From the NCBI RefSeq assembly GCF_019059575.1, contig NW_024881985.1, forward strand, positions 310,001-374,000: 64,000 nucleotides of DNA. Reading direction: 5' to 3'. The notes beneath the pieces were generated by a model that made no database searches, was not told the DNA's origin, and saw nothing but the letters and a program-made list of their open reading frames with translations. This DNA is from Amphibalanus amphitrite (taxonomy: Eukaryota; Arthropoda; Thecostraca; Balanomorpha; Balanidae). Positions 6,337-63,369 of this stretch are shown here, one piece after another. The position numbers and the translations under genes are program-made. Numbering within the stretch: the first letter of the stretch is position 1; the number at the start of each line of letters is the position of its first letter.

Positions 6337-8877
6337 CTAGCTCGGGCTGCTGCTCCTGGCCGCTCCGACACCGGCCGCCGAGCTCAAACCGGTGGTAGCT
6401 GCTCCGTCGCCGACCGGTGAGCTCGAACCGCCACTGTCGCCGCCGGCAGCTGCCCCGCCGCCGGTCGCTGAGTCCGCGCCGTAACCGACAAGATCGCCGC
6501 CACCACCGCCACTAGTACGGCCGTCGCCACCGAGGTCACCAGTGCGGCAGACACCGCCGAGGTCACCGGCACGACCCTCGCCCCCGAGGTCACCGGTGTG
6601 ACCCTCACGTCCGCTGTTGTCACCGTCACGACCATCGGCTCCGCTGCGGTCACCAGCACGACCATCGGCTCCGCCGCGGTCACCAGCACGACCATCGGCT
6701 CCGCTGCGGTCACCGGCACCGCCGGCGCCGCCACTGGAGGCGCCGGTCGCTCCGTTCGAGCCGCCGCCACGTGCCGCACGCGTTTCCCCGGCGTCGGCCC
6801 TGCTGCTGGCCGCGGCCGCTGGTCCGTCGCCGGCCGCGGAACTCGACCCGCCGCTGTCGTCACTGTCACCGCCGGCGGCTGGTCCGCCGCCGGTCGCACA
6901 GTCCGTGCCGTCACGGCTGACAGCCGCGCGCGCTGTTTGGTCGCCGCCACCGACATTGCTGCTGTCAGCGCCGCCGCCGTCCGTCCACCCACGTCGATGG
7001 GCGTCACGAGCCAGACCGGCCCGCCTGGCGGCTCCGTGGCCGCCGCCGCCGCCGCTGCCCACTCCTGCCTCCGGTGAGGCGCCGCTGGGAGGCGCTCGGC
7101 CATCACCAACTGCAGGGCCTCCGCCCGGCGGCGGTAGTCGGACTCGAGCGGGGCGCTCCTCTCCAGCGCCGCCTGTATCAGTTGCGACTGCTCCTCCAGC
7201 TCGCTCCGACACTCCGTCAGCAGACGCCTCGGCCTGCAGAGTCTGTAGTCGCTCCGTTAGCCGCTCGGTCTCGGCGGTCTGCTGGCGCGCCTGCTGTCGG
7301 GCCGCCTCCAGCTGCGCCTGCGCGCTGTGCAGCTGCTCGCAGCGGCTCCGCAGGTGCTCCGTCAGCGTGCCCAGCCGAGCGTCCTGCTCGCGCAGCCGGT
7401 CCTCCTGCTCGCGCAGCCGGCCCTCCTGCAGTTCCAGCCGGCCGATCCTGTCTCGCAGCTCGGCTACTGACGCCGCTAGCTCGGCGGTGAGCCGGTCGAG
7501 CTCCCGCTGCCGCTCAGTCAGCCTGGCGCCGAGCGCCTGTTCCCGGGAGCGCGTCTCCTCCCGCTGTCGCTGACGTTCATTGAGCTCAGAACACAGCTGC
7601 TCCGACCGCCGCTCCTCAGAAATCAGCCCGCGCCTGAGTGCAGTCCGGGTCGGACGCACCTCGTCCAGCGTTCGGCCGCCCGTCACCTGCACCTCGCCGC
7701 GCGCGCCGAGTCCCAGGGCCGCGAACCAGTCCCTGCCCAACAGGTTCACTGGCTGGGGGAAGTCGACCACCACCAGACGCAGGTTCTTCTGTTTTGTGCC
7801 ACGCTGAACCTTCACTACTGCCTCACCCTTGACAGGGATGGCATGTCCAGTGAACGATGACAGCACCAAGTCCGATCTCTGTAAGCACAGACCTGGAACA
7901 CTGCTGTCCGATCCTATGATGGTCACTGGGCTTCCCGTGTCCACCACAAACTCCATGTCCATGCCGTTGACCTGTAGGGTCATCTTCAGTGGAGCCATGT
8001 GACTGGCCTCTGACCCCTGACCCTGCTGCACAGTGTGCACACACCACAGCTCTGTCTCGGGCTGGGACACTTCCTGCACTGGGACAGGAACTACCTTACT
8101 CTTGCAGTTCTTCTTGAGGTGCCCGGGCTGCCGGCACTTGTAGCAAACCGGACCACGCCCCTGCCACTTTGTCGGTGTCCTCTGCTGCTGTTGCTGGTGC
8201 TGGCACTCCGCTCTCCTGTGACCCGGCTGGCCACAGCGGTAGCAGGTCAGCTGACGCTCGGCCACCAGCTGAACAGGCTCAGCCGCTGGGCCGGCTGCCC
8301 CAGCCACCAGCTGTCCCGGTTCAGCCGCTGAGCTGGGGCCCCGCATCTGCTCAATGAGGGCCTCCGTCCGCTCCATGGCAGTAGCAGCAGCCACCACATC
8401 CTGCAGAGTGAGCTGGTCGCCACGCTCAGCAGCCCGCTGCAGCAGCCGCTCCTGTAGCTTACCCTTGGTGCCGGCCAGGCATTGATTCCGGACCTCCTGG
8501 TCCACACTCTGGCCAGTGAAGCCGCACCGGTTCGCAGCCACCCGCAGCCGTGCCAGGTAGGCCTCGAATTTCTCACCAGCCTCCATCCGGATAGTGCTGA
8601 AGGCCAGTTTTTCCGCGATGGTGTTGCGGGCAGGGGTGAGGTAGGCCCTCAGCTTGGCCTTGCTGATCTCATACGCCCCCTCCACCCCGACCGGCTCTGG
8701 CAGCGTGCCAAACACCTGTTGCAGATCCGGACCGATCAGATGCAACAACATGGCTCGCTTCCGCGCCTCGCTGGTCACATCCAAAGCATCCAGGTAGAGG
8801 TCCACACTCGTGAGCCACCGGTCAAAGTCACCGCCCATCACGAACCGGTCCACGCCCGGGAGCATGGGCGCCGCCAT
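6337..8877 (-). CDS. Retrotransposon Gag-protease polyprotein with C-terminal coiled coil and low-complexity tail
   Basis: The ORF has 846 residues and starts at an ATG in good context (CGCC-rich, GCG after the ATG). Residues 1-180 look like a retrotransposon Gag capsid region. Two CCHC zinc knuckles follow at about 212-225 (CYRCGQPGH) and 245-258 (CYKCRQPGH); these bind nucleic acid. An aspartic protease follows, with VVDTGSPV at 311-318 (catalytic DTG) and LLGRDW at 379-384. Where pol would be expected, residues 415-545 are an Arg/Glu/Gln/Leu-rich predicted coiled coil. From about 550 the protein is Gly/Ser/Ala/Asp-rich with repeats of GDRSGADGRA type. Near 7215-7240 a different - frame continues heptad-like composition, so this copy may carry a frameshift that replaced the original C-terminus. 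Confidence 0.88.
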   Translation of the reverse strand: MAAPMLPGVDRFVMGGDFDRWLTSVDLYLDALDVTSEARKRAMLLHLIGPDLQQVFGTLPEPVGVEGAYEISKAKLRAYLTPARNTIAEKLAFSTIRMEAGEKFEAYLARLRVAANRCGFTGQSVDQEVRNQCLAGTKGKLQERLLQRAAERGDQLTLQDVVAAATAMERTEALIEQMRGPSSAAEPGQLVAGAAGPAAEPVQLVAERQLTCYRCGQPGHRRAECQHQQQQQRTPTKWQGRGPVCYKCRQPGHLKKNCKSKVVPVPVQEVSQPETELWCVHTVQQGQGSEASHMAPLKMTLQVNGMDMEFVVDTGSPVTIIGSDSSVPGLCLQRSDLVLSSFTGHAIPVKGEAVVKVQRGTKQKNLRLVVVDFPQPVNLLGRDWFAALGLGARGEVQVTGGRTLDEVRPTRTALRRGLISEERRSEQLCSELNERQRQREETRSREQALGARLTERQRELDRLTAELAASVAELRDRIGRLELQEGRLREQEDRLREQDARLGTLTEHLRSRCEQLHSAQAQLEAARQQARQQTAETERLTERLQTLQAEASADGVSERAGGAVATDTGGAGEERPARVRLPPPGGGPAVGDGRAPPSGASPEAGVGSGGGGGHGAARRAGLARDAHRRGWTDGGGADSSNVGGGDQTARAAVSRDGTDCATGGGPAAGGDSDDSGGSSSAAGDGPAAAASSRADAGETRAARGGGSNGATGASSGGAGGAGDRSGADGRAGDRGGADGRAGDRSGADGRDGDNSGREGHTGDLGGEGRAGDLGGVCRTGDLGGDGRTSGGGGGDLVGYGADSATGGGAAAGGDSGGSSSPVGDGAATTGLSSAAGVGAARSSSPS

Positions 8878-9279
8878 GATTGTTTATCCGACCGACCGCA
8901 CGGCTCGTACGGCTCTCCCCCTCTCCAACAGCTGACGAGGCTTGTACGGCTCTCCCCCTCTCCAACAGCTGACGAGCGCAGTCAGCTGGCGCCAGAGGTT
9001 CACTGCCGCTCCGCCACGCGGCGCTGGCTGCTTCCGCCAAAAATGGCGTCGGTCCGTCAGTGACGTCACAACCCGGGTCTCGGTCGCACCACGGCTCAAC
9101 CCGCCGCAGGCCACGGGTCTCCGGCAAACTGCCACCCGCACCGCACGAACCGTCACGAGTCCCGCACGTCCCCAGACCGTCCACGGCACTCCGCCACACG
9201 CCACTGGCACGTCCGAGTCCGCGACACTACCGCGCCCCGCCGGCCGCCGCACCGCACCGCCGCGCTTAAAACCGTTCGA

Positions 9280-12859: not shown

Positions 12860-12982
12860 AGTGCGTGTGAGCGGCGCTCGCCGGCTGCAGGAGGTCGCGG
12901 CGCGATGCTGGCGCGGGCTGGCTAAGCCGCCCCCGCCCCCGCCCGCCTCACGCTGGCTACCGTCTCTGTGACGGCGCTTATC
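12860..12982 (+). other. EcR: 5' UTR part of EcR A-type exon
   Basis: The exon begins after GTGTGTTCCAG (acceptor at 12858-12859), so the A-type transcript has at least one upstream non-coding exon not identified here. This matches EcR-A transcripts in insects, which have upstream non-coding exons. Confidence 0.7.
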
Positions 12983-13325
12983 ATGGAGATGCGACGCGGC
13001 GAGTCGCCGCTGGCGGCCAGCCCGCTCTTCAAGCTGGCCGGCTCTCCTCCTGGCTACCTGGGCTCGCCGGGGCTGCTGGCCACCGTGGCCGGCCGGCCGG
13101 CCATCAAGCAGGAGCCGGCGGCCGGCTCGCCCGAGCCGGGGCTGCCGCGGCGGATGCATGACGACTGGCTGCCGTCGCCCAGTCAGACCAGCCTGGACAC
13201 GGGCACGCCGTTCGCAGTGCTGCCCGTCTCCGGCGCCCAGACGGCCCCTCCTGGAGGCGGAGGGTTCTCCGTGTCACCCATGTCCACGAGCAGCTACGAC
13301 CCGTACTCGCCGACCGGCAGACCAG
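12983..13325 (+). CDS. EcR: Ecdysone receptor, A-type N-terminal exon
   Basis: This exon encodes the A/B domain of the A isoform: 114 codons plus the first base of a Gly codon. The start chosen is ATG 12983 (A at -3, G at +4); another ATG follows at 12989. Residues 41-44 (IKQE) form a consensus SUMO-acceptor motif, seen in EcR-A N-termini. The C-terminal half (DWLPSPSQTSLDTGTPFAVL, then VSPMSTSSYDPYSPTGRPG) matches the conserved EcR-A region as I know it from other arthropods. The GTGAGT donor follows 13325 in phase 1 and joins 37488 to give GRPG-HDD. With the 46832 LBD exon the protein would be 526 residues. The N-terminus sets promoter- and tissue-specific activity. Confidence 0.93.
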
Positions 13326-16780: not shown

Positions 16781-18170
16781 TGCCGCTGCCGGCGCCGCCA
16801 CGCAGCCCTTTTGTTTTGATCCGCGACGCACGGTAAGCCGGTCGGTGGGTGCCGCGCCGCTGCCAACCGCAACCCTTGCCGGCGTGACGACGGGGAGGGA
16901 GAGGGAGAGAGAGGAAAGGGGACCGTACGCGACTACTCTGCTCTGACTGGCCAGTCAATCAGTGACGTCCGGGGCGGGTATTTACTCGGCGAATAACAGT
17001 GGGAGAGACATGGATGGACCCGGCACCAGTCCATTCAGCACTGTTGATAGACATGGAGGCAGGGATGCTGTCTTTCGACCGTGCGGCGGACCGTTCGCCG
17101 CTGGCCGCCGGGCCGGTGTGACTGCACTCCCGCCCGCCACGCAGACACCCAATCGACTTCTCTTGCGTCGTTTTCGACGACTGGGCGCGTCCAGCGGGGG
17201 GTCGTCGGGCCGGCTCCGGACGCCTTTGCCGTCGTGGGAGGTTGGATCCAAACGTTACCGCGTTGATCACGAACTGCGCTTTGTGCGTTAGTTCGTGACA
17301 CCATCGTAATTGAAATCGTCATTGATTTGTACACTGTCTGTGACGAGTCCGCTGGGCTCGCCACTGGCCGGCATTCACTGCATCCGACGACCGGCGGTGG
17401 CGACGGCAGCGGCGGCTGTCGCGCCCGCCGGAGGCCAGTCTGCACTGAGCGCCGGCTCTGTCTGGCTGCCGCTCCCTTAGAAATTACTAACGGGGTAAAT
17501 ACGGGGGAAGCGCGTGCGTCAGCCGCGCCTGTCTAGACAGCCAGTCGGCGCCGGTCGTCGGTGAGTCGATCATGTGCGGTGGGCGGCGGCCGGGCCGAGG
17601 TGACATGCTCGTGAGTATGAATCGTGCGTGTGCCGAGGACAGTGTCGGAGACGACAGGACGGCAGCAGAGGACTGCGCCAGACGGCGGCTGCTAATGTGA
17701 CTGACGAGATCAGCGCGCTCCTGAGCCCAATCAAAACACAACAAATCAAAACTTCTCAGGTGGTACTTTATTGTGTACAAACGACAGCGATTTGTCCAAG
17801 TAAACATGTCAGGCTCGGCTGTGACTTCAAGAGAAACCCGTAGACAATGAAGAGATTCTTGGCTCTCAATTGAAACGTCGGAGACTTGAAGACTGTCAAG
17901 AAATCTGGAATATTTTTGTGGTGTAATTTTGATCGTGTGTGAACAGCATAACGGTTGAAGAAGGGTGAACAAGTATTTTTGTACTGACTTTTTCCGAGCA
18001 TACTTTGCGCCCGCTTGTAAACATCGTGTACTGCTAGTGCTCGCTCGTCAAGAGCCAGAGCTCGCTTGTTCCTCTGTCTAGAACAGCGCCACTGGTGTGT
18101 GAAACAATCGAGCGTCGGTGCACAAACTTACCCACCGCTCGTTTACGGTACGCCCAGTACGCCGTGCACA
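13326..18170. other. EcR intron / region between first exons
   Basis: No coding exon is supported here. Contents are GC-rich low-complexity stretches, a (CCG)n run at about 16748-16780, CpG-dense blocks at 15440-15960 and 16540-17470, and AT-richer DNA at 16030-16480 and 17750-18010. The CpG-dense segment before 18171 could include the promoter of the C-type first exon. A potential acceptor (CTCTGTCTAG) ends at 18081. Confidence 0.5.
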
Positions 18171-19584
18171 ATGTTGGGCACGTCCGGTGGCGAGCCTGCG
18201 CCGGCGGCGGTCGGGGCCGGGCCGTGTCGGGACCGGACGGCGCTGGAGCGGGCTGAACCGCTGCGGCTCCTACTGCCCGGCGGTATCCCCCAGCAGATGC
18301 TGGTCGGTGGAACTGTGACTATCGTTGTCAGCCAGCGGCTGGCGGCCGCGCCGGGTCCCCTGCAGCTGCAGGCGGCGAGTGTGAGCTCCACGGCGCCGGC
18401 CGAGCCGCCGCGGTCGGTCAGTTCGAGTGATGGGGAGACGGTGGCAGTGGGCCGCTCGCCGGGTCCCCGCCGTTACGGCAGGACCCAGCGGGCCGGCCCG
18501 GAGAACACCCCAGACACCAGCGCTGGAACGAGCAGCGATACTGGAGTACGGCCAGCGTGGTCCCTGGAGAGAATCGCCGTCCCATCGGTCACCTCCGCCC
18601 ATCAGGTGACGTACGTCAGTTCTGCGTCTAATGACGTGCCCAGCCGTCCGCTGACGCTGCTCAGACGTCAGCAGAATCAGCAGGTATCAGCTGGTGCTGG
18701 TCGTCTGCTGCTGATGGTGGCGCCTTCAGCCGTCAGCAGCCGGGCAGCTGAGAGTGACGGTGATTCCTGTCTGCCCGGCGCTAGTCCTGCTCCGCAGAGG
18801 ACAGCTTCCCCGGTCTGCGCTCCGTCGCAGGCCGGCCGGGGCCTGGGTGCATCTGCAGACTCACCGGGATCTGAAATACGAGCGGCGCCGTCGCCGCAGC
18901 CAGCAACAGTAGATGACGCTCAGGACCGACGGTCAGACTGTCAAGAAGAGCTTGCTGGACGGGACGGACAGCGCGATGCTAATCATCCCCAGCAGTCAGA
19001 GTCAGTTTCCGACACCCTACCGTCGACCTCCAGCGACGACCGGTCGAACACAAACCGAGCGGCCGATGGTCCGGTATTGGTGACCAGGCTAGGACAGACC
19101 GGCGACGTTCTGGTGTCAGACTGTGGCCTGCGACTCTCGCTGGACGGAACGGCGTCTAACTGGACCTGGGGCGATACCTCCCGCTCGTGTGCAGATGCAG
19201 ACGGCGCCTCTGTAACCGTCTCCGGCTCGGACACACAGGAGCCGGCGGAGACGAGTCGTCTTCGACGGCCGCCGAGCGTGGCCTGTTCGAGCCGCAGCGA
19301 CTCACAGCCATGCCCTGTGGATAGCTCTGACGGCGGTCCCTGGAGCACCGCCTCCGAAGATCGGGACCAGTGGCAGGAGCGTGTCAAGGAGGAGGAGCAG
19401 GAGCAGGATGATGACGAGGAGGAGGATGAGGAGCCGGCCGGGCGGTCGGAGCTGCTCGGCCTGGAGCGGCCCGGCATGGTGTCTCTCCTGCTGGGTGGTG
19501 CCCCGGAGAGGATGGTGAACCTGGTGTTCCGGGGTGACGACATCGACGATCTGGAGCTGGACTCATCGACCGACGCGCCGACAG
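18171..19584 (+). CDS. EcR: Probable third EcR first exon (C-type), long acidic N-terminus
   Basis: The frame is open from before 18066 to 19667, far longer than chance allows in this composition. First ATG is 18171 (A at -3). The exon would encode 471 codons plus one base, ending at the GTGATG donor after 19584 in phase 1, the same phase as the A and B exons. Splicing to 37488 gives APTG-HDD and an 883-residue receptor. The product has no recognised domain. It is Ser/Pro/Gly-rich, has an acidic tract at residues 405-421 (Glu/Asp run) and an acidic-hydrophobic motif at 456-463 (DDIDDLEL). The latter resembles RDLDL in the B exon and QDLWL in fly EcR-B1, suggesting an activation region. Alternatively it is an unrelated single-exon gene ending at 19667, or an acceptor at 18081 extends the exon 5'. 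Confidence 0.6.
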
Positions 19585-20621
19585 GTGATGTCCCGCCGCA
19601 CCGTCCGACGGGGTCGGGTGCGCCTAGGCAAGCTGCTTTGGTACAGCTCTCGGAGTGGCACAACTAGTTATCGATTAGATCATAAATGCTGTTCTTAATA
19701 TTCAATTAACCTTTCCGACAACAGTATTATTGACGAAACTCTTCTTTCCGTCAATTAGTGCAGCTTATTTTGGTGATTGATCTAGCTATAAAAGGCATGA
19801 AAAATGATTACCTATTCAACCAATCCCCTTTATTGAGTGATGCATGAGTATCAGTAGGATATAACTTTATTCATTATGCAGTGATTTTATAATAAGTACG
19901 CTCTGTAACGTTTGAGTTTTGTTATAAAAAAGCACACATTTACGGCGATCAATATTGGTTCTCTTTTTGGAGTTTCACCTTATCCGCTATCATGTATTCT
20001 GAAATATTGTTGTTGATGCAAACTAATATGTGAGAGCCTCGATCTTTTTCTTGCGACTCCTATGCACGGTGCAATCTCGCCCTACGTTCCTTACACTATT
20101 CCCATCTCAATATTTCGGCCAGATTCGTCACACCGTCAGGTGCGTCTCGGTTTTTGTTTTGGCGCGTTTTTTTTCGGCTGGCTAGACGGCGCGTTTTTTG
20201 CTCGTCGGCGGCGTTTTTCAGCGTCTGTCTGGCCGTGCCGTCAAGTTCAGCTCTGGGGCCGGCTCCCCAGTATTATCGCCCTGCCGCTGGGGAGTCGGCA
20301 GGGGAGCCGGGGGGGGGGGGGGGGCAGGCAGACGGCAGTCGCCGCCGCCGCGCCGCCGTCGCAGGGGGGACGGGACGACAATGAATGGCGGGGCGACGAC
20401 GAGACAATGCAGAAAAAACGCGCCACTCCCGTCCGCCGTCTGGCTCGGCGATACGGACGTAACTGCTGACTAATGGGCTGCGACTCGGCGCTATGATTAG
20501 ATCACGGGAAACGTGTATCGCAGACTGTTACTTGGCGAGGCTGAATCAGCTATACTTATTAGGCCTGATGTCGATGCGGAATAACAACTCCCTTCAATCT
20601 AAAAGATATTTTTTACCTGCA
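19585..20621. other. EcR intron, no feature recognised
   Basis: AT-rich from 19670 to about 20050, then GC-rich with a G run at 20310-20324. No exon or repeat structure was recognised. Confidence 0.5.
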
Positions 20622-20629
20622 CTCATGTG
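20622..20629. repeat. 8-bp target site duplication, left copy
   Basis: CTCATGTG flanks the element on the left and is repeated exactly at 22627-22634. Confidence 0.8.
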
Positions 20630-22626
20630 CACTGGCGGTCGCAGCCGCTCGCAAAAGGGGGGGCCAAAGTCACACTCGCGGGACATAACATTTATCAGTC
20701 ACCGGGGGGGGGGGGTGATCGGCTAATTTTTTACGTCCACGAGGCGCCGCGCAGTTGGCATTACTTATGCTTCATCCACCTCATTCTTGCGTGAAATCTT
20801 TAAGCTCAAGTTAAGGCAAAAGCACCAGTTCCATTTCCCGTCCCACGGTGTTTCCACCGGTCGGGCCACTGCACCATGGCGACGGATCGGTGTAGCATAT
20901 ACTGGAAGGTCGGGCACGCGGATTCATGACCTTACCACAATAAACAATTCGGAAAACTACGGATACCTCTTGCTTTGAACAAGCATGTGAAACCCAGAGA
21001 TCATTTTCAGACTATGACATTTACCCATATAGCTGTTTGGCGGCGGGAGAGAATAGGTACACCGACCTCTGGAGACCCCCGGCCCCACAGGCTCCTGGTT
21101 TTCAAAATTGACATCTGAGAGCCGCGCACGACTCGCGCGGGGCCTCGCAACGGCTCTATTGGGGCTCACTCAACCTGCCTTATAGTCCTACTGCTAAAAA
21201 GACTGGCCCTGAGCCCTAAGGACTTCATCAGTCTCTGCCAGCCCCAGGACCCACACCGGCTCATGGGGTCCCGACGTCGAAATATGAGGGAATCTGCGCG
21301 GGACCATCAGGACGTAAAGTAATCTCGATCAGGACCAACGTACGGCTGTGCAGGCGTCTGCGTGAGCCCTGTGATCTTCAGAAGCCCACCCATGTATGTT
21401 TTCACTTAGAGGCCAGTTTAGGGCCCTCAGAGACCAGTACAGGGCCTGCAAACTGCAAAGGCCAGTAGTTTGAGACCATCAGAGACCGAGTTGGGCTCTC
21501 GGAGGCTTATGTGGGTCCTACTCATTACAGGCCAACATGGGGCCCTCAGAGGTCAGCGTGGGGCCCTAAAAGACCGGAATGAGCCGTCGTTGGAACCCAG
21601 AGGCCAGCAGAGGGCCCTCAAAGGCCAAGATGAGCCCTCCTCAGAGGCCAATGGAGGCCCTTAGAGGCCAGCATCGGGTCTTCAGCAGCCAATGCGGGGC
21701 CCTCATTGGCACCTAAATGTTCGTCTTGGGACGCCAGAGACAGCAATAAGGCCACTAGAGACCGGTGTGAGACCCTCAGACGCCGGTTGGGGCCCCTGAG
21801 GCCGGTAAGGGGTCCTCATAGGTCAGATGTGGGGCCTCAGAGGTCGATGTGGGCTCTTAGCGGTCAACGTGGGCGCTTGACCGCCACTGAAGTTCCCTCA
21901 GAGGTCAGTGTTGGACGCTCAAAGACCGGTGTGGGCGTGTTTTTTTAGCCTCGTGACGATCGAATCAGGGCCAGGGTCCCATACACCTATGGGGGCCCAT
22001 CGGTTGCTTGAGGGGGGGGGGGCAAATGATATGATGCCCCCCTTTATGTGCCTTGGGAGGGCATTCCCTGATGCCCCCCGCGACCGCCACTGTGTACACA
22101 TTACATACAGCCTACAGGCCTCTGAAATTACATTCTAGCTAATGCAAACTTTATGCAGGCCCCGGAGATCCCACGCTAATCCTTAAGAAACCAAGCCGGC
22201 ATACGGCGTCACCACCGGGCTTCTGAGGTGCACAGCACCAACCCATGAGGTCTTACTTTAGAGCCACGCTCCTTTGGCAGGGCCCACCCGCCACTGCCGA
22301 AGAGGTCTCATGCCAGCCATTGCTGGGCCTACGAAAGCCTCAAGTAAACCCACGCTGATATTCCATGTAAGATGCGGCCATACTCGTGAACCAGTGCCAG
22401 CGACGCTGACCGCCAAATTGACAGAATACGAAACTGAGCCCACCCATGAGTGAAATTTACGTCCTTTGATGGCGCAAGAAAGAAAATGAAACATACAAAA
22501 AGCTTTTCTAGGACTTTTGTTCGATCTGAAAGGTGGGGCCAAAAGATAGTATGGCCCCACCTTTCAGCACCAAAGGGGGGGGGGCCATGGCCCCCGTGGC
22601 CCCCCCCCCCCCTGGGACCGCCAGTG
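20630..22626. mobile_element. hAT-like non-autonomous DNA transposon (2.0 kb)
   Basis: Perfect 11-bp terminal inverted repeats (CACTGGCGGTC at 20630-20640 and GACCGCCAGTG at 22616-22626) are flanked by an 8-bp direct duplication CTCATGTG (20622-20629, 22627-22634). An 8-bp duplication with CACTGGCGG-type ends is characteristic of hAT elements. The interior holds G-rich runs, a minisatellite (21200-21960), palindromes at 22530-22563, and a second terminus-like sequence (GCGACCGCCACTG, ending 22092) that may be a nested relative. No transposase ORF is present. Confidence 0.82.
21200..21960. repeat. Degenerate minisatellite inside the hAT-like element
   Basis: Many imperfect copies of a roughly 25-30 base unit built around CAGAGGCCAG and GGGGCCCT. 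Units vary in length and have diverged. Confidence 0.7.
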
Positions 22627-26742: not shown

Positions 26743-27079
26743 ATGTTGTCTCTGACGGACCTGAAGGCGCTCACGTACCCTCGGCTGCCGAGTCTGTCGG
26801 TGTCGGCCGACGGCTCGCCGCCCGAGGTGACCTCGTCTCACCTGTCGCCGCTCTCAGAACAGACCTCGCCCACGTCCACACACACGGCGCACACCATGGT
26901 GGCCAGTCCCGACCAGCAGCTCGATCACGACTTCGACATGCACATGGACGGCCTGATGTGGCGCGACCTGGACCTGAACTCGAACAGCACCAGCGCGGCC
27001 GCCACGCTGGGCATCGGCGGTCCTCTGCACCACGTCCGCAAGATCCTCATCAGCGCGCCCCAGCCGGAGATCAGCAAGG
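26743..27079 (+). CDS. EcR: Ecdysone receptor, B-type N-terminal exon
   Basis: ATG 26743 (ACC before it) opens 112 codons plus one base. The GTAGGA donor follows 27079 in phase 1, giving ISKG-HDD on joining 37488. Two short stretches recall insect EcR-B1: PPEVTSSHLSP (compare SEVTSS) and GLMWRDLDLN at about residues 69-79 (compare QDLWL). The exon lies downstream of the A exon, as in insects. With the 46832 LBD exon the receptor would be 524 residues. B-type N-termini generally carry a stronger activation function; its strength here is unknown. Identification as a B-type exon rests on phase, position and these short similarities. Confidence 0.8.
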
Positions 27080-36200: not shown

Positions 36201-37487
36201 TGGCCTTGGTTAGAATATCAGCCGGTCGGGGAGGATTGGCGATTGATATACTGCTCAGGGTGATGGGATTTGGGTGCGTTACCGGTTGGGTGCGCTGCCC
36301 GCTGAGTGCGTTGTCCGGTGGCCGAACTGGGGTGTGGGTATGGGTGTGTTGGTCGGTGGGTTGGTGGATGCCTTGCACAGTGGGTGCGCCGGCCGGTGGG
36401 TGGTGGGGGCGGTGGGCCCGCTGCACTGGGAGTCGGCAGCGCGCCGCTCCCACGGCCCGGACGCCGCCGCACCGACCGCGCACGGCTACTAATTCCTGGC
36501 TTGCAATCGGGTCCCGCCGAGGGGCCGCGCCGTCGCCTGCGCAGGATCACCCGGATCGGCGAGACCTGCGCGTCCGACCCGCGCGAAGTTCATTGCCATG
36601 AGAGCACCGTCAACAGAGAGGAATGTCAGGTTTCGAAAGCGGCCACTAATGCTACCGGTTTCTGGCACTGATCTGACGGCGCGCGCGGTGGGACAGCGCC
36701 GGGCCGAGGTGGCAAATCCTCCGGCTCCTCAGTGGGCCGACGGCGCCGCAGTTCGACCAATGAGCGGCCGCGCCGGTCGCGTGCTGTTGTCAGGAAGCGG
36801 GCCGTTTTTACCGATGTCTCGGTGAACGGGTCGGATGACAGTTGATGACGGCCGACTGCGGCTGCTGCGGTCAGTCAACAACTCTGCGGCAGCGGCGCGG
36901 CGGGCGTCACCTTGAACCTGCACACTGAACTCGCCGGTCGCGCGGACAGTGCCGCAATCCATGACGGTGCGCCGTCAGTGCCGGATTGTCACGTCACCTC
37001 TGTCGGATGACGGCGATTAAATCGCTTTCTCTCGGAGAATACACAGTCGAGCTGACGAGCGCGACACGCTACCGGGACGTTTTCTCTTCCTTTTATCCGT
37101 TAGTCGGAGAATATGATAAGGATCAGTGCTTAATGTCAGTTCCTGCTAATTTTAAAATTACCACCACCTAATGTCAGAATTTTTACTCGACGCTTATGCC
37201 AGCACTTTTATGATGGGGCACCATTTTACTATCCCATCTGATTAAAACCTTATCTGTGAGTCACGTATGACTATGACTGTATTCTTTCTTACTGAGCCAG
37301 CATCTTGGCGGGACTGACGGCGACAGCCCATCGCCACCTTGCTCTTCCCACCTCATTGACTACAGAGCTTGTCTCAAGACACCCGCCACTTCATTACCAT
37401 TCCGTCTACATCTGTGACCCCTCGTCACTAACGACCTGTCCCTAGTCGCTGACCTCTTCACTAACCCTGCTGTTCTTTTCGTTACAG
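33202..37487. other. EcR intron before the DNA-binding-domain exon
   Basis: No exon or clear repeat family was recognised. The segment alternates AT-rich parts (33540-33990, 37130-37260) and CpG-dense parts (34020-34520, 35640-36960). Confidence 0.5.
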
Positions 37488-37646
37488 GTCACGACGACCT
37501 AGCGTCACCTTGCAGTAATGGCCAGTTCGGCGACGACAAGCGGAAGAAGGGCCCGGTACCGCGACAGAATGAGGAGCTATGTCTCGTCTGCGGCGACCGT
37601 GCCTCCGGCTACCACTACAACGCGCTTACCTGCGAGGGCTGTAAAG
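37488..37646 (+). CDS. EcR: Ecdysone receptor, first DNA-binding zinc finger exon
   Basis: This 159-nt common exon sits between TTTTCGTTACAG and GTAAGA, phase 1 at both ends. It encodes [11 protein letters not shown], a basic stretch ([12 protein letters not shown]), and finger 1: [22 protein letters not shown]. The four cysteines coordinate zinc, and CEGCKG is the P-box that reads the AGGTCA-type half-site. The intron position after CEGCK-G is conserved among nuclear receptors. Copies of the exon's 3' end recur in the following intron (see findings). Confidence 0.98.
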
Positions 37647-37810
37647 GTAAGACAGTGCTCTCCTGCGAGAACTGTAAAGGTAACAAAGCGCTCACCTGAC
37701 AATGTCGCCTAAGAGATTGTCAGGTGAGCAATGTAAGGTGAGTAAATGTAAGAAAGTGGTCACCGAGGGCTGTAAACTGTCTTGCTCATCTGCGAGGGCT
37801 GTAAAGATAA
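37647..37810 (+). repeat. Degenerate copies of the exon 3' end and donor site
   Basis: The exon-intron junction motif TGCGAGGGCTGTAAAG (37631-37646) recurs as TGCGAGAACTGTAAAG+GTAAC (37664-37683), as GAGGGCTGTAAAC (about 37765-37777), and exactly at 37791-37806, where the donor GT has become AT. The copy at 37664 keeps a GT donor and reading frame. Confidence 0.85.
37690..37729 (+). repeat. Intronic hairpin near alternative donor
   Basis: GCTCACCTGACAAT (37690-37703) pairs perfectly with ATTGTCAGGTGAGC (37716-37729) around a 12-base loop. It lies 10 bases after the second donor GT (37680-37681) and contains a donor-like GGTGAGC in its 3' arm. Confidence 0.8.
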
Positions 37811-38969: not shown

Positions 38970-39110
38970 GTTTCTTTCGGAGGAGCATGACGAAAAATTC
39001 AGTGTATGTATGCAAATATGGCCAAAACTGTGAAATCGACATGTACATGAGGAGAAAATGTCAAGAATGTCGGCTCAAGAAATGTCTAGCTGTCGGCATG
39101 AGGCCAGAAT
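38970..39110 (+). CDS. EcR: Ecdysone receptor, second DNA-binding zinc finger exon
   Basis: This 141-nt exon lies between CTGTTTCAG and GTAAGT, phase 1 at both ends. It encodes [20 protein letters not shown], then [20 protein letters not shown] and VGMRPE. The cysteines of finger 2 are all present. The stretch between C(KYGQN)C holds the D-box used in dimer contact, and [13 protein letters not shown] is the near-invariant nuclear receptor signature. The junction completes CVVPE with the next exon. Confidence 0.98.
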
Positions 39111-41275: not shown

Positions 41276-41406
41276 GTGTGGTACCGGAGTACCAATGCCA
41301 GGTGAAGAGGGAGGCCAAAAAGGCGCAGCGGGAGCGGGACCGGCCCAACTCGACCACCTCGGCGCAGGACGGGCCGGACTCCAAGCGGCAGCGGCTGGGC
41401 TCCACC
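41276..41406 (+). CDS. EcR: Ecdysone receptor, hinge (D domain) exon
   Basis: This 131-nt exon (acceptor CCTTTCCTCAG, donor GTAAGT) enters in phase 1 and leaves in phase 0. It encodes VVPEYQCQ, then VKREAKKAQRERDRPNSTT and a basic end (SKRQRLGST). The start is the C-terminal extension of the DNA-binding domain; the basic clusters are probable nuclear localisation signals. The sequence is close to crustacean EcR hinges as I know them. The reading frame stays open well into the following intron, but the strong donor marks the exon end. Confidence 0.95.
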
Positions 41407-42316: not shown

Positions 42317-42496
42317 GACCAGACGGTAGCTGTCGCTGGCGCGGCCGGCGGCGGCGGAGGCAGTATGCCCGCACCCGTCTCCCTTCCCGTACAGCGGCGC
42401 GCACTGACCGCCGAACAGAACGAGCTCATCAACCGGCTGGTGCAGTACCAGGAGGAGTACGAGTCACCCACCAAGGAGGACATGAGGCGCTCGGCG
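42317..42496 (+). CDS. EcR: Ecdysone receptor, LBD helix 1 exon
   Basis: This 180-nt exon (acceptor GTGCCACAG, donor GTGAGT) is phase 0 at both ends. It encodes a Gly-rich linker and then LTAEQNELINRLVQYQEEYE, SPTKEDMRRSA. That is helix 1 of the EcR ligand-binding domain, with the typical QxxYExPxxED motif. A second AG at 42322 could give a version lacking two residues. Confidence 0.95.
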
Positions 42497-44959: not shown

Positions 44960-45112
44960 CTGGAGCGGACCAGCTCGGACCCCGCCGAGCTGCAGTGTAA
45001 GCAGATCACCGGCCTGACGGTGCTCACCGTTCGACTCATAGTCGAGTTCACCAAACGGCTACCCGGCTTCCAGGACAAGCTCTGTCGCGAGGACCAGATT
45101 TGCTTAGTCAAG
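44960..45112 (+). CDS. EcR: Ecdysone receptor, alternative LBD helix 3-4 exon (variant a)
   Basis: This 153-nt exon (acceptor GTTGCAG, donor GTGACT) is phase 0 at both ends and encodes the same segment as 46832-46987. It reads ITGLTVLTVRLIVEFTKRLP, then GFQDKLCREDQICLVK. The two Thr positions that contact ecdysteroid in helix 3 (xTxLT) and the charge-clamp Lys (EFTK) are kept. It differs from the usual EcR pattern by Glu-Met to Gly-Leu before the first Thr, one extra residue in GFQDKL, and DQICLVK in place of DQITLLK. Using both exons together would keep frame but duplicate the helix, so they are probably mutually exclusive. Confidence 0.88.
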
Positions 45113-46831: not shown

Positions 46832-46987
46832 ACGCTGGTCGACACGCCAGGGGAGGACGACTCGGAGCGACACTTCCGACGCATCACCGAGATGACAATC
46901 CTGACCATAAAGCTGATTGTGGAGTTCAGCAAGTGTCTGACGGGCTTCGACCGGCTGGTCAAGGACGACCAGATCACCCTGCTCAAG
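46832..46987 (+). CDS. EcR: Ecdysone receptor, LBD helix 3-4 exon (variant b, canonical)
   Basis: This 156-nt exon (C-rich acceptor GCCTCAG, donor GTACAG) is phase 0 at both ends. It encodes an acidic lead ([13 protein letters not shown]), then [20 protein letters not shown] and [15 protein letters not shown]. It matches the standard EcR helix 3-loop-helix 4 in length and in ITEMTILT and DQITLLK, so it is the canonical version. The nuclear receptor LBD signature (F-x-K...GF..L...DQ..LL) is intact. Confidence 0.93.
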
Positions 46988-48624: not shown

Positions 48625-48850
48625 GAATGCTCCAGCGAGGTCATGATGCTCCGCTGCGCTCGTCGGTACGACGAGGATACCGAATCAATCGTGTTCGCCA
48701 ACAACTACCCCTACACCCGCGAGTCGTACGAGCGCGCCGGCCTCGACTCGGCCACCATCGACAAAAACTTCCAGTTCTGCAAGAAGATGTGCAAGATGAA
48801 GGTAGATAACGCCGAGTACGCCCTGTTGACTGCCATCGACATCTTCTCCG
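48625..48850 (+). CDS. EcR: Ecdysone receptor, LBD helices 5-8 exon
   Basis: This 226-nt exon (acceptor GGGTTACAG, donor GTGAGT) enters in phase 0 and leaves in phase 1. It encodes ECSSEVMMLRCARRYDEDTE, SIVFANNYPYTRESYERAGL, then a linker and MKVDNAEYALLTAIDIFS. It contains the ecdysteroid-contacting residues of helix 5 (MMLR), the beta strand (VFANN) and the Tyr of TRESY. The first residue after the junction is Glu where most EcRs have Ala (KACSSE). Confidence 0.97.
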
Positions 48851-50033: not shown

Positions 50034-50278
50034 ACCGGTTCGGTCTGGAGGAGCCGGACAAGGTGGAGCGAATCCAGTCCATCTACGTGGAGGCGCTGAG
50101 GGCGTACGTGGACTTCCAGCGGCCGCCGCCCACCGGCGTCATCTTCGCCAAGCTGCTCAGCGTGCTGACCGAGGTCCGCCAGCTCGGCAAGCTCAACACC
50201 GAGCTCTGCTGGTCGCTGAAGCTGAAGAAGCGCGTGCTGCCGCCGTTCCTGCACGAGATCTGGGACGTGCCGGCCTAG
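50034..50278 (+). CDS. EcR: Ecdysone receptor, last LBD exon with stop
   Basis: The acceptor is TTTCTGTCCCGCAG, entering in phase 1 (G+AC gives Asp), and the exon ends at TAG 50276-50278. It encodes DRFGLEEPDKVERIQSIYVE, helices 10-11 (FAKLLSVLTEVRQLGKLN), and the helix 12 activation region (PPFLHEIWDV). The conserved Trp that closes the ligand pocket is present. The protein stops two residues after IWDV (Pro-Ala), so there is essentially no F domain. Fly EcR has a very long one. Confidence 0.97.
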
Positions 50279-57840: not shown

Positions 57841-60136
57841 TCAGGCCGACAGCGGGTCGGCCACGGCCGCCTGCTCGGGGTGGCCGTTAGCTGAGATCAG
57901 GGCGGTCTTCCCGGCGAGCTGATCCGACTCGGTGACCGACTGGCCGTTGTCAGCCGCCGGTACCTCCATCTCCTCGTCACTGCTCTCCTCGTGGACAATG
58001 GGCACGCCCTTACGGAACTGGCGGCGCGTTACCTCACCGTCCTTCATCTCGAGCTCGATCACTTCCTCGCCGTCTTCCTCCTCGGCTGGCGGGTCGCCGC
58101 TGCCCGCCACGAAATTGGCGATCGCCTCCAGCGTCTCCGCGTCGGCGTCGGCGGCCGGCTGCGAGCGTCGCTGCCGACGAGCCTGGTCGCGCTGGTGGGC
58201 GCGCAGCGCGGCGCGGCCGTGCATCCGCAGGTGGCGCTGCAGCCGCTCCTCGTCTCCGCACTGGGCGCGGCACACGTGACACTGGCCGGGCTCCAGGTCA
58301 CGGGTCAGCTGCTCCCACTGCTGGATCTCACGCTGCTGTTCAGAGGCGGCCACCTCTGGCGGAGGCTCACGCAGACGGTGCACCAGAAGTAGATGTTTCA
58401 GCAGGGATGGTTTGGTCGAGTAGCACTGGCCACACTCGGGACACTGGTGCTGGCTGCCCTGCCGGTGCAGTGCCACGTGCGCCACGAAGTCGGCGCGCAC
58501 GTCGGTCTGAAGGCCGCAGCAGACGCACCGGTAGCCGGCCTGCTGCTGCTGCTGCGGCGCCGCCGGCTGCTCCTCGATCGGCGAGCGCGACCGTTTGACG
58601 CGACTGAGGCGCGGCGGGCCGTCCTCGCCGGCCGGCCGCGGCCGCTTGGTGCCGCCCTTGCCGCCGCGTCCGCCGTTACGCCGTCGCCGGCCCTCAGAGG
58701 CATCCTCGCTCACAGAGGAATTCTCACTGTCCAGGTCGTGCAGGCTGGTGATACCCGGCAGCGGCCCGGCCACCCGACGGATCAGCGCCTTCTTACTGGC
58801 CATCTGACTCAGCGGAACATCGTCGTCGTCATCGTCATCCATGGCCGGTGCGTCGCCGGCCGCGGGCGGCTGCGGCGGCTTGGGCCGCGCCGGTCGGCCC
58901 TGCGCGGCGCCGCGGTGCTTGGCGAAGTTGTGTCGCAGAAGGTCACTGAGCGCAGCGAACTGCAGCTGACAGTAGGGACACGTGAAGTCGCGCAGATCGT
59001 GCTCCGTCTCCAGATGCAGCTGTAACGCGTCACGACTGCCCAGTTTGGCGTAACAGAGGCCGCACCGATCGCTGCCAATCTCAGCCGCGTGCTCGGCGAT
59101 GTGGTTCTTGAGCAGCTCCTGCGACTCGAAGGCAGAGGTGCAGAGCAGGCAGAGCGGCACCCCCTCCTGGATATGGGCACGTAGGTGCTCCGTGTGCGCG
59201 GCCTTACGACGGAACTCAGCCTGACAGACGGGGCACCGGTGCATCACCACCGGCTTACGGCCCGGCTCCTGCTTTATCTTAGGCAACGGCACCGGCAGCG
59301 TGTCGGCAGAGCGCGACACTGCCTGTTTGGTAGCAGCTACCGGCGCCTGGACCGGCGCCACCGGCGCTGGTGGCGGCGGCGGCGGCGGCGGCGGCGTGGG
59401 TGCCGGCGGCGGCGAGGGCGCCATCGACGAATACTCGTGCTGCGATTCCAACGCAGCGATTTGGAATTCCGGATGCTTCTGGGCGAGGTGGTCTGAGAGT
59501 AGTTCTTTGCGCCCGTAGTCGACGCCACACTCTGGACATCTAAACACGAAGCGAATCTGCTCAAGCACGCGGTCACCGTGCTTCTTGGAGGCCAGGTGAT
59601 CACGCAGCGTCTTCGGATGGTTGAAGGTGGCGGCACAGAACGGACACTTGAGAATGGGCATGTAGGGCGTATCGCCGTGCATAGTCTCACCATTGTGCTT
59701 CACGTTGACGTGGCTGTTGAAGCCGTTGATGGACTCAAAAGCCAGCGGACACTTGCGGCACTTGTAGAGTTTCTGGACGTGCGTCTGCAGCATGTGCAGC
59801 TTGACGTCACCCACCTCGATCAGGCAGACGGAGCAGCATATTTTGAGGTCGCGGGTCAGGTGCAGGCAGCCGGCTACTACATGACGCCGGTAGTCATCGT
59901 ACGAGCCCAACACCTTGAAACCGCACTCGGGGCACACGTAAGGGTAGGGGAACAGGTTGGGCTTGTGCAGGCCGTGGTGCGCCAGCAGTGCACACTCGGA
60001 CGGGCAGGGCTGAGCGCACTCCGGGCAGCGCGGGGGTACGGCCTCCAGCGCCTCAGAGCTGGACGGACAGATGTGCGCCCGCAGGGTGTCCGTGTTGCAC
60101 AGCGTGTTGCACATAGGGCAGCTGATGTCCTGGGGC
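57841..60136 (-). CDS. C2H2 zinc-finger protein, ZNF532/592/687-like, last exon
   Basis: This large 3' exon encodes 765 residues after one base completing a Lys codon, ending at the stop at 57841. The acceptor is GTGCTCCGGCAG. About 14 C2H2 or C2HC fingers are visible, from CPMCNTLC, CPECAQPC and YVCPECGFK through CPFCAATF, CPYCQLQF and CPECGQCYSTKPSLLKHLLL to CHVCRAQC. Between finger groups lie a Pro-rich linker, an acidic run (DDDDDDD), an Arg/Lys-rich likely nuclear signal and a Gln run. The C-terminus is acidic (HEESSDEEMEV). The spacing and PNLFPYPYVCPECG segment recall the ZNF532/ZNF592/ZNF687 chromatin-associated family (fly Row may be related). This is from memory, unconfirmed. Confidence 0.92.
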
Positions 60137-60471
60137 CTGCCGGAGCACACACAGAGATCGGGAGCGTGTCAGATGGAGCCACGGAGAGCTCAAACTCAGG
60201 TATCAGCATTGACAGTGGTGGCACAAACATGTGGGTGACCCAGAGCTAGGCGCTGTGGTATATTGAGCTCTGCTGTTACTTCCGGTTCAATACTCGTATA
60301 AAAAAGGACATAAACACCAGTGTCTTTCAAATAGTTTAATCACCATACATTCTCGATATTTACTGGTCATTATATCCACGTGAAAAGCCACGGTGTCTTT
60401 ATGAAGCCTCACCAACCAAGCTTTCTGTACACAACTCCGCCCCGTCCCCCTCCACCCTAACCGCTCCTTAC

Positions 60472-60649
60472 TTTCGCTCTGGCTCAGCGTGCACCATCTG
60501 CACTAGCCGCGGCGGCCCGGTGATGAGGCGGGCGCCGAGCGACGGCAGCACGCGAGTCGGAGAGCTCAGCTCGGCGGCGCTCAGTGCTGAGATGTCCACC
60601 GACTCGGGGTCCAGTGACGACGCTTCCAGACCGTGACTGTCCAGGTGCT
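60472..60649 (-). CDS. C2H2 zinc-finger protein, internal exon
   Basis: A 178-nt exon with acceptor GCCACTCACAG and donor GTAAGG, entering in phase 1 and leaving in phase 2. It completes a finger (CRFI-EHLDSHG) and encodes a Ser/Leu-rich linker ending MVHAEPERK, which joins PQDISCPMC in the last exon. If unspliced, a stop (TAA) follows directly, which helps define the donor. Confidence 0.88.
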
Positions 60650-60932
60650 CTGTGAGTGGCACACAAACAGACTTCACCGTTGGAGTCACCTCATCGTTAC
60701 GGCATGTCAACACAACCAGCCGGGTCTCAAGTCCGGGTACTCAAGTTGAGTTGAGTGATTCAGGGGTTGTTTATTAGGGCTTTAGGGCGCGTCGAACGTA
60801 GCTCTAAATGTCCTTGGAATCAACACACATGCGATGATGGTTTTAACGACATAGCCGTCCCCGAGCGTCGGTTAATATGTTGTTGGCGCGGAGCGAATGA
60901 CTACCTGTAGAGCACCGGTACTCGCCACTCAC

Positions 60933-61048: not shown

Positions 61049-62407
61049 CTGCGGCACAATCGACGGATACTTTTATAGAGGCTACTGCAAACACCACAAA
61101 ACAAAACACATCAATCCTAACCCAAGCCCGGTGCCAATAACGGCGTTACACAGTCCACAGGCAATGCGTTTATCATTTCCAGACGGCTGGCCCACATTTT
61201 TCACCAGCAGCCGAAATAGCGCAGCTGCTGCCGACAACGAGCCACTTTTGATAAGACTCCTCGGTCAGCCACACCCGGCACGTTTACAGAGCCACCAATG
61301 AGGGGGCGCTACCGAGTCGCCCGCTAGCGGCCGGCCTAAGTTCCGTCAGTCACACAGTATCGAATCCACCATTCAACGGCTTATAGCCTTATAAAGTCGT
61401 TCTTTTTTAGGGAAAGGGAAGAAAAATAGTGACAGCAACTTGTGTAAAACATAAATTATGAACCCATGAATCATTATGAATCCTTAAAAGCGGCATGATC
61501 CGCTTGCCGCAAGTTTCACCACCGCGAATATGTTATTCGCCCCGTGTTACAAATTAGCGTCCTCAATGACAAAAAAACGTTTAAATCCCACATAAATGTT
61601 TAAACCCCACACAAAACCCTATCAGCAGCCATCTGCCCTTCCTCGCCATCCGGTGAAATACCAGTACCAGGGACAGGTACCGCTCTTAATAACAAAACTA
61701 AATTTTACGGTCGAAAGCAGATAGAAAACAGCTATATCAGCCACGCAAATACTTCTGATGGGCCATCGCCAGCCAGAGTCAGCAATTTCCGATCTAAGCC
61801 GGCGGATTTCGTCAACCCCCACCTGTAAACCTTCGCACAGGCGGCTTAGGAGCAGGGCATTTCGGCAATCCCCACCTGTAAACCTTCGCACAGGCGGCTT
61901 AGGAGCAGGGCTGCACTCTGCAGCCGATGGATTTTCGGCGACTCCGACTCCGGCTTCCAAAAATCGACTCCGACTCCGACTCTCACCCCAGCTCCGACTC
62001 CAGACATCTCTCTTAAACTCCACGTCATGATAGTAAATATAGTCGGTTTAGCTTTTTGCCTCGCTTGAAATTCGCACATTTCTCCGCCTTACACAGCAAT
62101 TATACTTCATAATTTAACATCCTCATCTAAAAACAGGTTCTGGCGCAGCCGCCGCTTTCTACTTCTCACGCTCAAAACACTCATCCAGAATAAAAGCACG
62201 ACCTAGATTCGAAAAAAGCATAGATAACGAAAGTAAGATTTTCCAACAAACAGGCCGAACCGAATACGACTTTAAGCCATGCAATGTCGACTCCAACAAG
62301 CAAAGTTGGTAAGAATTTGGCGATTCCCACTCCGACTCCGGGCAAAACTATCAACACCTACCGACTCTGACTCTTAAGCCCAGCTCAGGATTATAGGGGG
62401 GACTCAC
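61049..62407. other. Intron of the zinc-finger gene
   Basis: No exon was recognised. A 51-base tandem duplication containing CACCTGTAAACCTTCGCACA occurs at about 61818-61920, and ACTCCGACTCCG repeats occur at 61935-62010 and 62320-62350. Confidence 0.55.
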
Positions 62408-62934
62408 CTTTCACCGCACTGTTCGCACATGAAGCCCTCCCGCGGCAGCGGCAGCTGCAGCTTGTTGGGCAGCCGGGCGATGTCCGTAGTGGAGCGCCGG
62501 CCGGCCAGTACCGCGTTCAGCATCTCGGTGCGGTTCAGCGGGATCACCGGCACCGGCTCGGCCGGCGGTGGCGGCGGGGGCGGGGGCTCCTCGGCGTCGG
62601 CCATAGTGAGCGCGGCGGGGTCCGGCGGGCTGACCTGGTCGGGCGGCAGTACCGAGATGGCGGCGGGCTCCGTCACCGGCTCCGCCACCTCCGGCTGAGG
62701 CGCCGGGTCCTCGGCAGTGGGCGGCGCCGGCTGCTCATCGGCCACCTGCTCCACTTTACCGGGCTGGGTCTCGGTGGCCGGCTGGACTGCGCTGTCAGCT
62801 GGGGGATCCTGCTCCATGGGAGTAGCAGAAGCCTCCTGATCAGGGGCAGGAGCTGGGTTCTGGGCTGTGGTAGACTCAGGTTCAGCTGCAGCTTCTTCAG
62901 TCAGGTTGGCTGCCTGAGCTGAACCGCCGATCTC
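62408..62934 (-). CDS. C2H2 zinc-finger protein, low-complexity 5' exon
   Basis: A 527-nt exon (acceptor TTTCTAATGCAG, donor GTGAGT), phase 0 in and phase 2 out. It encodes 175 residues that are Pro/Glu/Ala-rich and probably disordered, with a poly-Pro run, then IPLNRTEMLNAVLAGRRSTT and the first finger cysteines (FMCEQCGER). The conserved-looking part is the last 50 residues. Confidence 0.85.
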
Positions 62935-63369
62935 CTGCATTAGAAAAAGGAGGACCAAAACATAAGCATCAGTGATCTTTATGGCACTAATAATTAGGAC
63001 AAGTGTCATAAGGAAGGACAGACACTCTGCCAAGCGAAGAAAAAATGTTAAGTTACCTGGGCCAAAACATGTCACATATGGTTCTTCCTTTGCATGGCAG
63101 CACTGTCGACTCATGAAGACACATTTACTCCATATTACCAAGCCAGAAGCCATGCAACTTGCAAGTTGTCAGTAATCCAGTATATGCCACTGCTGCCTCA
63201 GCCCATTCATCTATTCACCTCATTCTTACTACCAAATGTCAGTTCATGAGCTTCAAATGTATATGCAAGAAGGGAATGAGACATGATAAGAACTAGAAAT
63301 CTACAAGTCCCAAACTAGTCATGTTACCAGGGAGGTTAGTAAGTGTACTGTTGGCTGTCAGAGCCATAC

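Follow-up and report, generated by a model that had tools for sequence, protein, structure and literature searches.

The EcR locus of Amphibalanus amphitrite

The window, i.e., the 64-kb stretch of the Amphibalanus amphitrite genome that was analysed as a whole, contains the whole of an EcR gene, encoded on its plus strand (Table 1). The product of the common exon that encodes the first half of the DNA-binding domain (DBD) finds solved EcR DBDs as its top matches, and the product of exon 6a plus e7 likewise finds solved EcR ligand-binding domains (LBDs; E 6.4e-44). Upstream of the common exon lie two first coding exons, A and B, whose motifs are those given for non-insect arthropods in the motif descriptions of PMC2829036, and which supply N-termini of 114 and 112 complete residues, respectively. 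Between these two lies a third, much longer candidate first exon. The EcR models built from A, B and this third exon are all stop-free to the terminus, with predicted products of 526, 524 and 883 residues, respectively, when LBD exon 46832-46987 is used.

Table 1. Features of the EcR locus, with positions counted from the first base of the window
Feature	Position	Strand	Remarks
EcR-A first coding exon	12983-13325	+	IKQE SUMO motif, DDW, A-box ending SSYDPYSP; motifs as defined in the descriptions of PMC2829036
Possible 5'UTR intron	17561-18081	+	predicted splice; donor TCG/GTGAGT, acceptor CTGTCTAG/AACA
5'UTR part of proposed exon	18082-18170	+	would instead be coding in the case of an in-phase splice from exon A
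Proposed third EcR coding first exon	18171-19584	+	471 codons plus one base, phase 1
VKEE followed by acidic run, psiKxE SUMO-type motif	19383-19424	+	K406, encoded by AAG at 19386, is the sole lysine in the 471-residue product
DL-like acidic motif	19533-19571	+	at least one such window in 1041/2000 shuffles
Donor CAG/GTGATG	19585-19590	+	phase 1; top-scoring GT of 18171-19900 (6.98; next 6.67)
EcR-B first coding exon	26743-27079	+	EVTSS S-rich core, SP residues, DL-rich-like DFDMHMDGLMWRDLDL; motifs as defined in the descriptions of PMC2829036
Common EcR exon, first half of DBD	37488-37646	+	match to solved EcR DBD, E 2e-15
Remaining EcR, early exons	38970-39110, 41276-41406, 42317-42496	+	open gene model
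Remaining EcR, alternative LBD exons	44960-45112 or 46832-46987	+	open gene model
Remaining EcR, last exons	48625-48850, 50034-50278	+	open gene model

The two alternative LBD exons encode 51 and 52 amino acids, with 23 of 47 aligned residues identical, and each leaves the whole EcR gene open. From their sequences they look mutually exclusive, and the swap of one for the other would alter the first helices of the hormone pocket. At the other end of the gene, there is an acceptor-like site, TGTGTTCCAG/AGTGC, at 12860, 123 bases 5' of where EcR-A starts, and a short upstream ATG is found between the two, at 12905; together, these suggest a non-coding exon ahead of EcR-A.

Two further elements flank the gene. 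On one side, EcR is adjoined by a C2H2 zinc-finger protein gene on the minus strand (57841-60168; 775 open codons), and the coding-like open stretches 60471-60740 and 62407-63168, also on the minus strand and matching no Pfam family, may be further exons. On the other side, upstream of EcR, the minus strand has an open frame at 6337-8883 that encodes a pair of CCHC zinc knuckles along with an aspartyl protease of retroviral type and by these marks is a gag-like retroelement remnant.

A long open frame between the A and B first exons

The original prediction placed a frame of about 1.6 kb between the A and B first exons, and such a frame is indeed present: from 18021 up to a TAG that ends at 19667, the plus strand is stop-free for 548 codons. 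The start and donor that had been proposed for it are likewise seen, with an A at -3 of the ATG at 18171 and 471 codons from there up to the phase-1 GT after 19584. The ends of exons A and B are in phase 1 as well, and the predicted splice of the third exon to the common DBD exon is in phase 1 on both sides and without an internal stop, so that an in-frame join like that of A and B is possible, as claimed. When 18171-19584 is followed by 37488 onward, the model has a single terminal stop and gives 883 amino acids with 46832-46987 or 882 with 44960-45112, in agreement with the expected product of about 883 residues. Over 500 dinucleotide shuffles, the longest stop-free run was 355 codons for a 3 kb region and 483 codons for the ORF's own sequence, as against the 548 observed.

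Coding signal

The codon model used to score coding potential had as its training set the A and B exons of EcR, its common exons and, at 57841-60168, the zinc-finger gene; the third exon was left out. In its proper frame 18171-19584 scores 0.015 bits per codon, while the other five frames score from -0.186 to -0.425, and this value exceeds that of all 1553 overlapping windows of the same size, for which the best-of-six maximum is -0.189. Among the held-out controls, EcR, B and the zinc-finger gene reach 0.27 to 0.36, but exon A alone only 0.07; thus, the third exon is weaker as coding sequence than these controls and comes near exon A in score. Synonymous codon choice taken alone gives a similar picture (0.01 against a best-of-three control maximum of -0.13 over 1500 windows). 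Third-position GC counts against coding, being lower here (0.705) than in EcR-A (0.87) or the zinc-finger gene (0.81). The chi-square for codon position is 49.3, about twice the control maximum of 23.2 (1500 windows).

This periodicity is spread unevenly along the exon. Its 471-base thirds give chi-squares of 26.2, 19.3 and 34.6, all above the 99% level of 18.3; among the three 354-base pieces that were tested, 18879-19232 falls short of the 99% level, and 18525-18878 taken alone is not significant, falling short even of the 95% level (11.1 versus a null value of 13.3). The middle of the exon is weakly coding-like. The best 60-codon window of the third exon ranks fourth among 533 open stretches. 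Eleven of the 14 best stretches are the third exon itself, EcR exons, the zinc-finger gene or the gag-like element; of the other three, two lie on the minus strand (62407-63168 and 60471-60740) and the third, 37418-37696, is again EcR, which brings the number accounted for to 12 of the 14.

The coding signal is missing 5' of the ATG, where 18021-18170 scores -0.604 and 17817-18170 has no codon periodicity (chi-square 2.9). At the other end, the final 26 codons ahead of the donor score 0.636, a value that none of 3000 stop-free control windows of equal size reached, and the 26 codons past the donor score -0.288. Equally low scores are found in five of 18 windows inside the exon, and a drop as large occurs in 118 of 3000 control pairs; hence, the fall after the donor fits the donor but is no proof of it. 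Taken together, 18171-19584 is very probably coding.

Predicted exon boundaries

The splice sites were scored with general weight matrices not derived from a database, with one acceptor position skipped. On this scale, the CAG/GTGATG donor is of moderate strength, being without a G at +5: it ranks seventh of ten when set alongside nine EcR donors, and its score is equalled or beaten by 27 of the 1397 GTs in 13.5-37 kb, itself included. The agreement in phase is a one-in-three event, and 14 donors scoring at least 3 were available to choose from within 18171-19667.

Upstream of the ATG, a predicted intron has stronger sites. Its donor after 17560 is matched or exceeded by 13 of the 1397 GTs, and its acceptor before 18082 by eight of the 1228 AGs, of the same 13.5-37 kb, each count including the site itself. 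Removal of this intron would take out six ATGs (17572-17847) and, as there is no ATG within 17848-18170, would leave 18171 as the first ATG after 17065. Exon A resembles the third exon in having an acceptor-like site shortly upstream (12860).

A probable EcR exon and its alternatives

These features make it probable that a third EcR transcript has 18171-19584 as its first coding exon. An own promoter near 17-18 kb would drive such a transcript, 19584 would splice to the common DBD exon at 37488, and the 471-residue N-terminus would replace those of A and B to yield an EcR of 883 residues. An indirect argument for a link to EcR comes from a scan of 13.4-37.45 kb, where 107 open stretches on the plus strand reach 60 codons or more, a threshold at which shorter exons would be missed: the best window is above zero in only two of them, the third exon (0.552) and B (0.519), with the runner-up at -0.004. 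Thus, the EcR DBD exon is the first coding partner that can be seen downstream apart from B, and a splice to EcR is favoured over a gene of its own.

Such a gene of its own, which would be short or have a single coding exon, sit within the EcR intron without being joined to EcR, and encode a 498-residue protein from 18171 to the stop ending at 19667, is an unlikely reading, albeit the best placed of the alternatives. The stop, reached only 81 bases past the donor, would suit it, but the first AATAAA comes about 1.27 kb beyond that stop, at 20939, and neither AATAAA nor ATTAAA occurs within 19585-20938, which is likewise an indirect argument. The coding statistics are independent of the splice and the donor is moderate; yet there is no coding excess past the donor, itself a weak test. 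The transposon-like frame elsewhere in the window (6340-8883) scores as coding too, so a coding signal is by itself no link between the exon and EcR.

A nested gene is also not helped by the homology searches, in which the 498-residue frame found neither a Pfam nor a PDB family (best E 1.3, below the cut-off, and 1, respectively). A search of viral_contigs returned 49 pattern matches, none of them confirmed; none of these three collections is one of animal genomes. Comparison by BLASTP with the products of exons A and B gave trivial matches only, which tells against an EcR first exon. No similar DNA or protein occurs elsewhere in the window (blastn 1e-3, tblastn 1); hence, nothing points to a repeat or to the duplication of an exon.

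More unlikely still is an internal cassette exon, 18082-19584, lying between exon A and the common exon and producing a long EcR-A of about 1027 residues. Its arithmetic is sound: the length of 1503 bases is divisible by three, each end is in phase 1, and the strong acceptor at 18082 is in phase with the exon A donor. Its beginning is another matter: 18021-18170 is non-coding by score in the required frame, so that the first 89 bases of the cassette look non-coding, which speaks against it, and the first ATG after the acceptor is the one at 18171, in good context. Least probable is a chance or decayed open frame that is never translated, for despite a G+C content of 66% over the ORF, the weak codon statistics of its middle third and the lack of a homologue in Pfam, PDB and viral_contigs, no control reaches the values of three separate codon statistics and the open run is longer than any obtained by shuffling.

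Composition and motifs of the proposed N-terminus

If spliced to EcR as proposed, the third exon would contribute a mostly disordered, arginine-rich and lysine-poor N-terminus that becomes strongly acidic at its end. The 471 residues comprise 40 D, 29 E and 40 R with a single K, for a net charge of -28. The description as acidic applies chiefly to residues 377-470, which account for -23 of this. AlphaFold2, run on the 471 residues with no alignment, gave a mean pLDDT of 40.9, with 390 of the 471 residues under 50 and one helix (398-410), and is as good as no model.

Two motifs lie in the acidic end. An acidic tail favours SUMO attachment, and the only lysine sits in a psiKxE motif that is followed by an acidic run. 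A psiKxE arises in 197 of 20000 shuffles and one with at least five acidic residues among the next ten in three of 20000, figures that overstate the case because the motif was picked after seeing the sequence. The second is the DL-like GDDIDDLELD, and here the original prediction of an activation domain fares less well: the acidic motif near the exon end is present, but windows of this type do not exceed chance, as they are expected in about half of the shuffles, which makes the "strong activation domain" a guess. The rule used to pick out such stretches does not find the motif of exon B (0 hits), owing to the basic residues of the latter. The acidic end might still draw in coactivators as an AF-1 peculiar to this isoform, and SUMO joined to K406, beside the acidic run, might tune or repress it; this mechanism, a SUMO-tuned acidic AF-1, is a tentative proposal.

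The marks of the known isoforms are largely wanting. The 471 residues contain no [ED]V[TS]S and hence lack the S-rich core of EcR-B1, which exon B has. Among the EcR-A marks, K(K/R)x(K/R), (D/E)(D/E)W and SSYD are absent and psiKxE alone is present; the K(K/R)x(K/R) NLS motif is also missing from the exon A product.

Comparison with known EcR isoforms

Set against the EcR-B1 region as PMC2829036 describes it, the third exon is alike in that it would furnish another N-terminus for the common DBD exon to continue and in its low-complexity end, perhaps also in an acidic/hydrophobic DL-like stretch of a kind that shuffles yield as often. It differs in having no EV(T/S)SS S-rich core and in its length of 471 residues, and the B1 motifs are carried by a separate exon of the same gene, at 26743. 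With the EcR-A isoform-specific region of type-1 A in the same description, it has the psiKxE SUMO-type motif in common, whereas the (D/E)(D/E)W and the SSYDxxYSP A-box are lacking and are found instead in exon A at 12983. Long linkers do exist, e.g., one of 137 residues that PMC2829036 gives for Daphnia magna EcR-B1.

Multiple isoforms are on record in other crustaceans. Daphnia magna is listed with three that concern the A/B region (PMC5636884, Table 1), and Marsupenaeus japonicus and Litopenaeus vannamei with four and eight, respectively, in the A/B, D and E regions (PMC5636884). Crustacean EcR genes with more than two N-terminal variants can be seen as resembling this locus, being set beside it by their description in PMC5636884 only. 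The EcR ORFs given there for Eriocheir sinensis are 1545-1638 bp, i.e., about 515-545 residues, versus 883 here. As more than two N-terminal EcR variants are thus already on record, what would be new in the third exon is its length and sequence. A literature search of open-access papers found no EcR with an N-terminus of such size, which is about four times the length of the A and B regions.

The isoforms of EcR decide the differing effects that one moulting hormone has on different tissues, and in insects, the difference between them is the N-terminus. The original prediction stated that insect isoforms differ in their N-termini only, which holds for insects but not for crustaceans nor, apparently, for this gene with its two alternative LBD exons. 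If a longer third N-terminus with its own promoter is real, the A/B scheme is incomplete in arthropods. A bolder and distinctly doubtful proposal would be a third isoform class made by this one non-insect arthropod EcR gene, with a SUMO-switchable acidic activation domain and six receptors in all; if true, the six would combine three activation functions with two hormone pockets, the latter from the alternative ligand-pocket exons. The pocket exons have a parallel, drawn by description rather than sequence, in Es-EcR-4 of Eriocheir sinensis, an exchange termed exon skipping plus intron retention in the account of PMC5636884: there, as with 44960-45112 and 46832-46987 here, an LBD exon, in that case of 150 bp, is swapped for an alternative of equal length.
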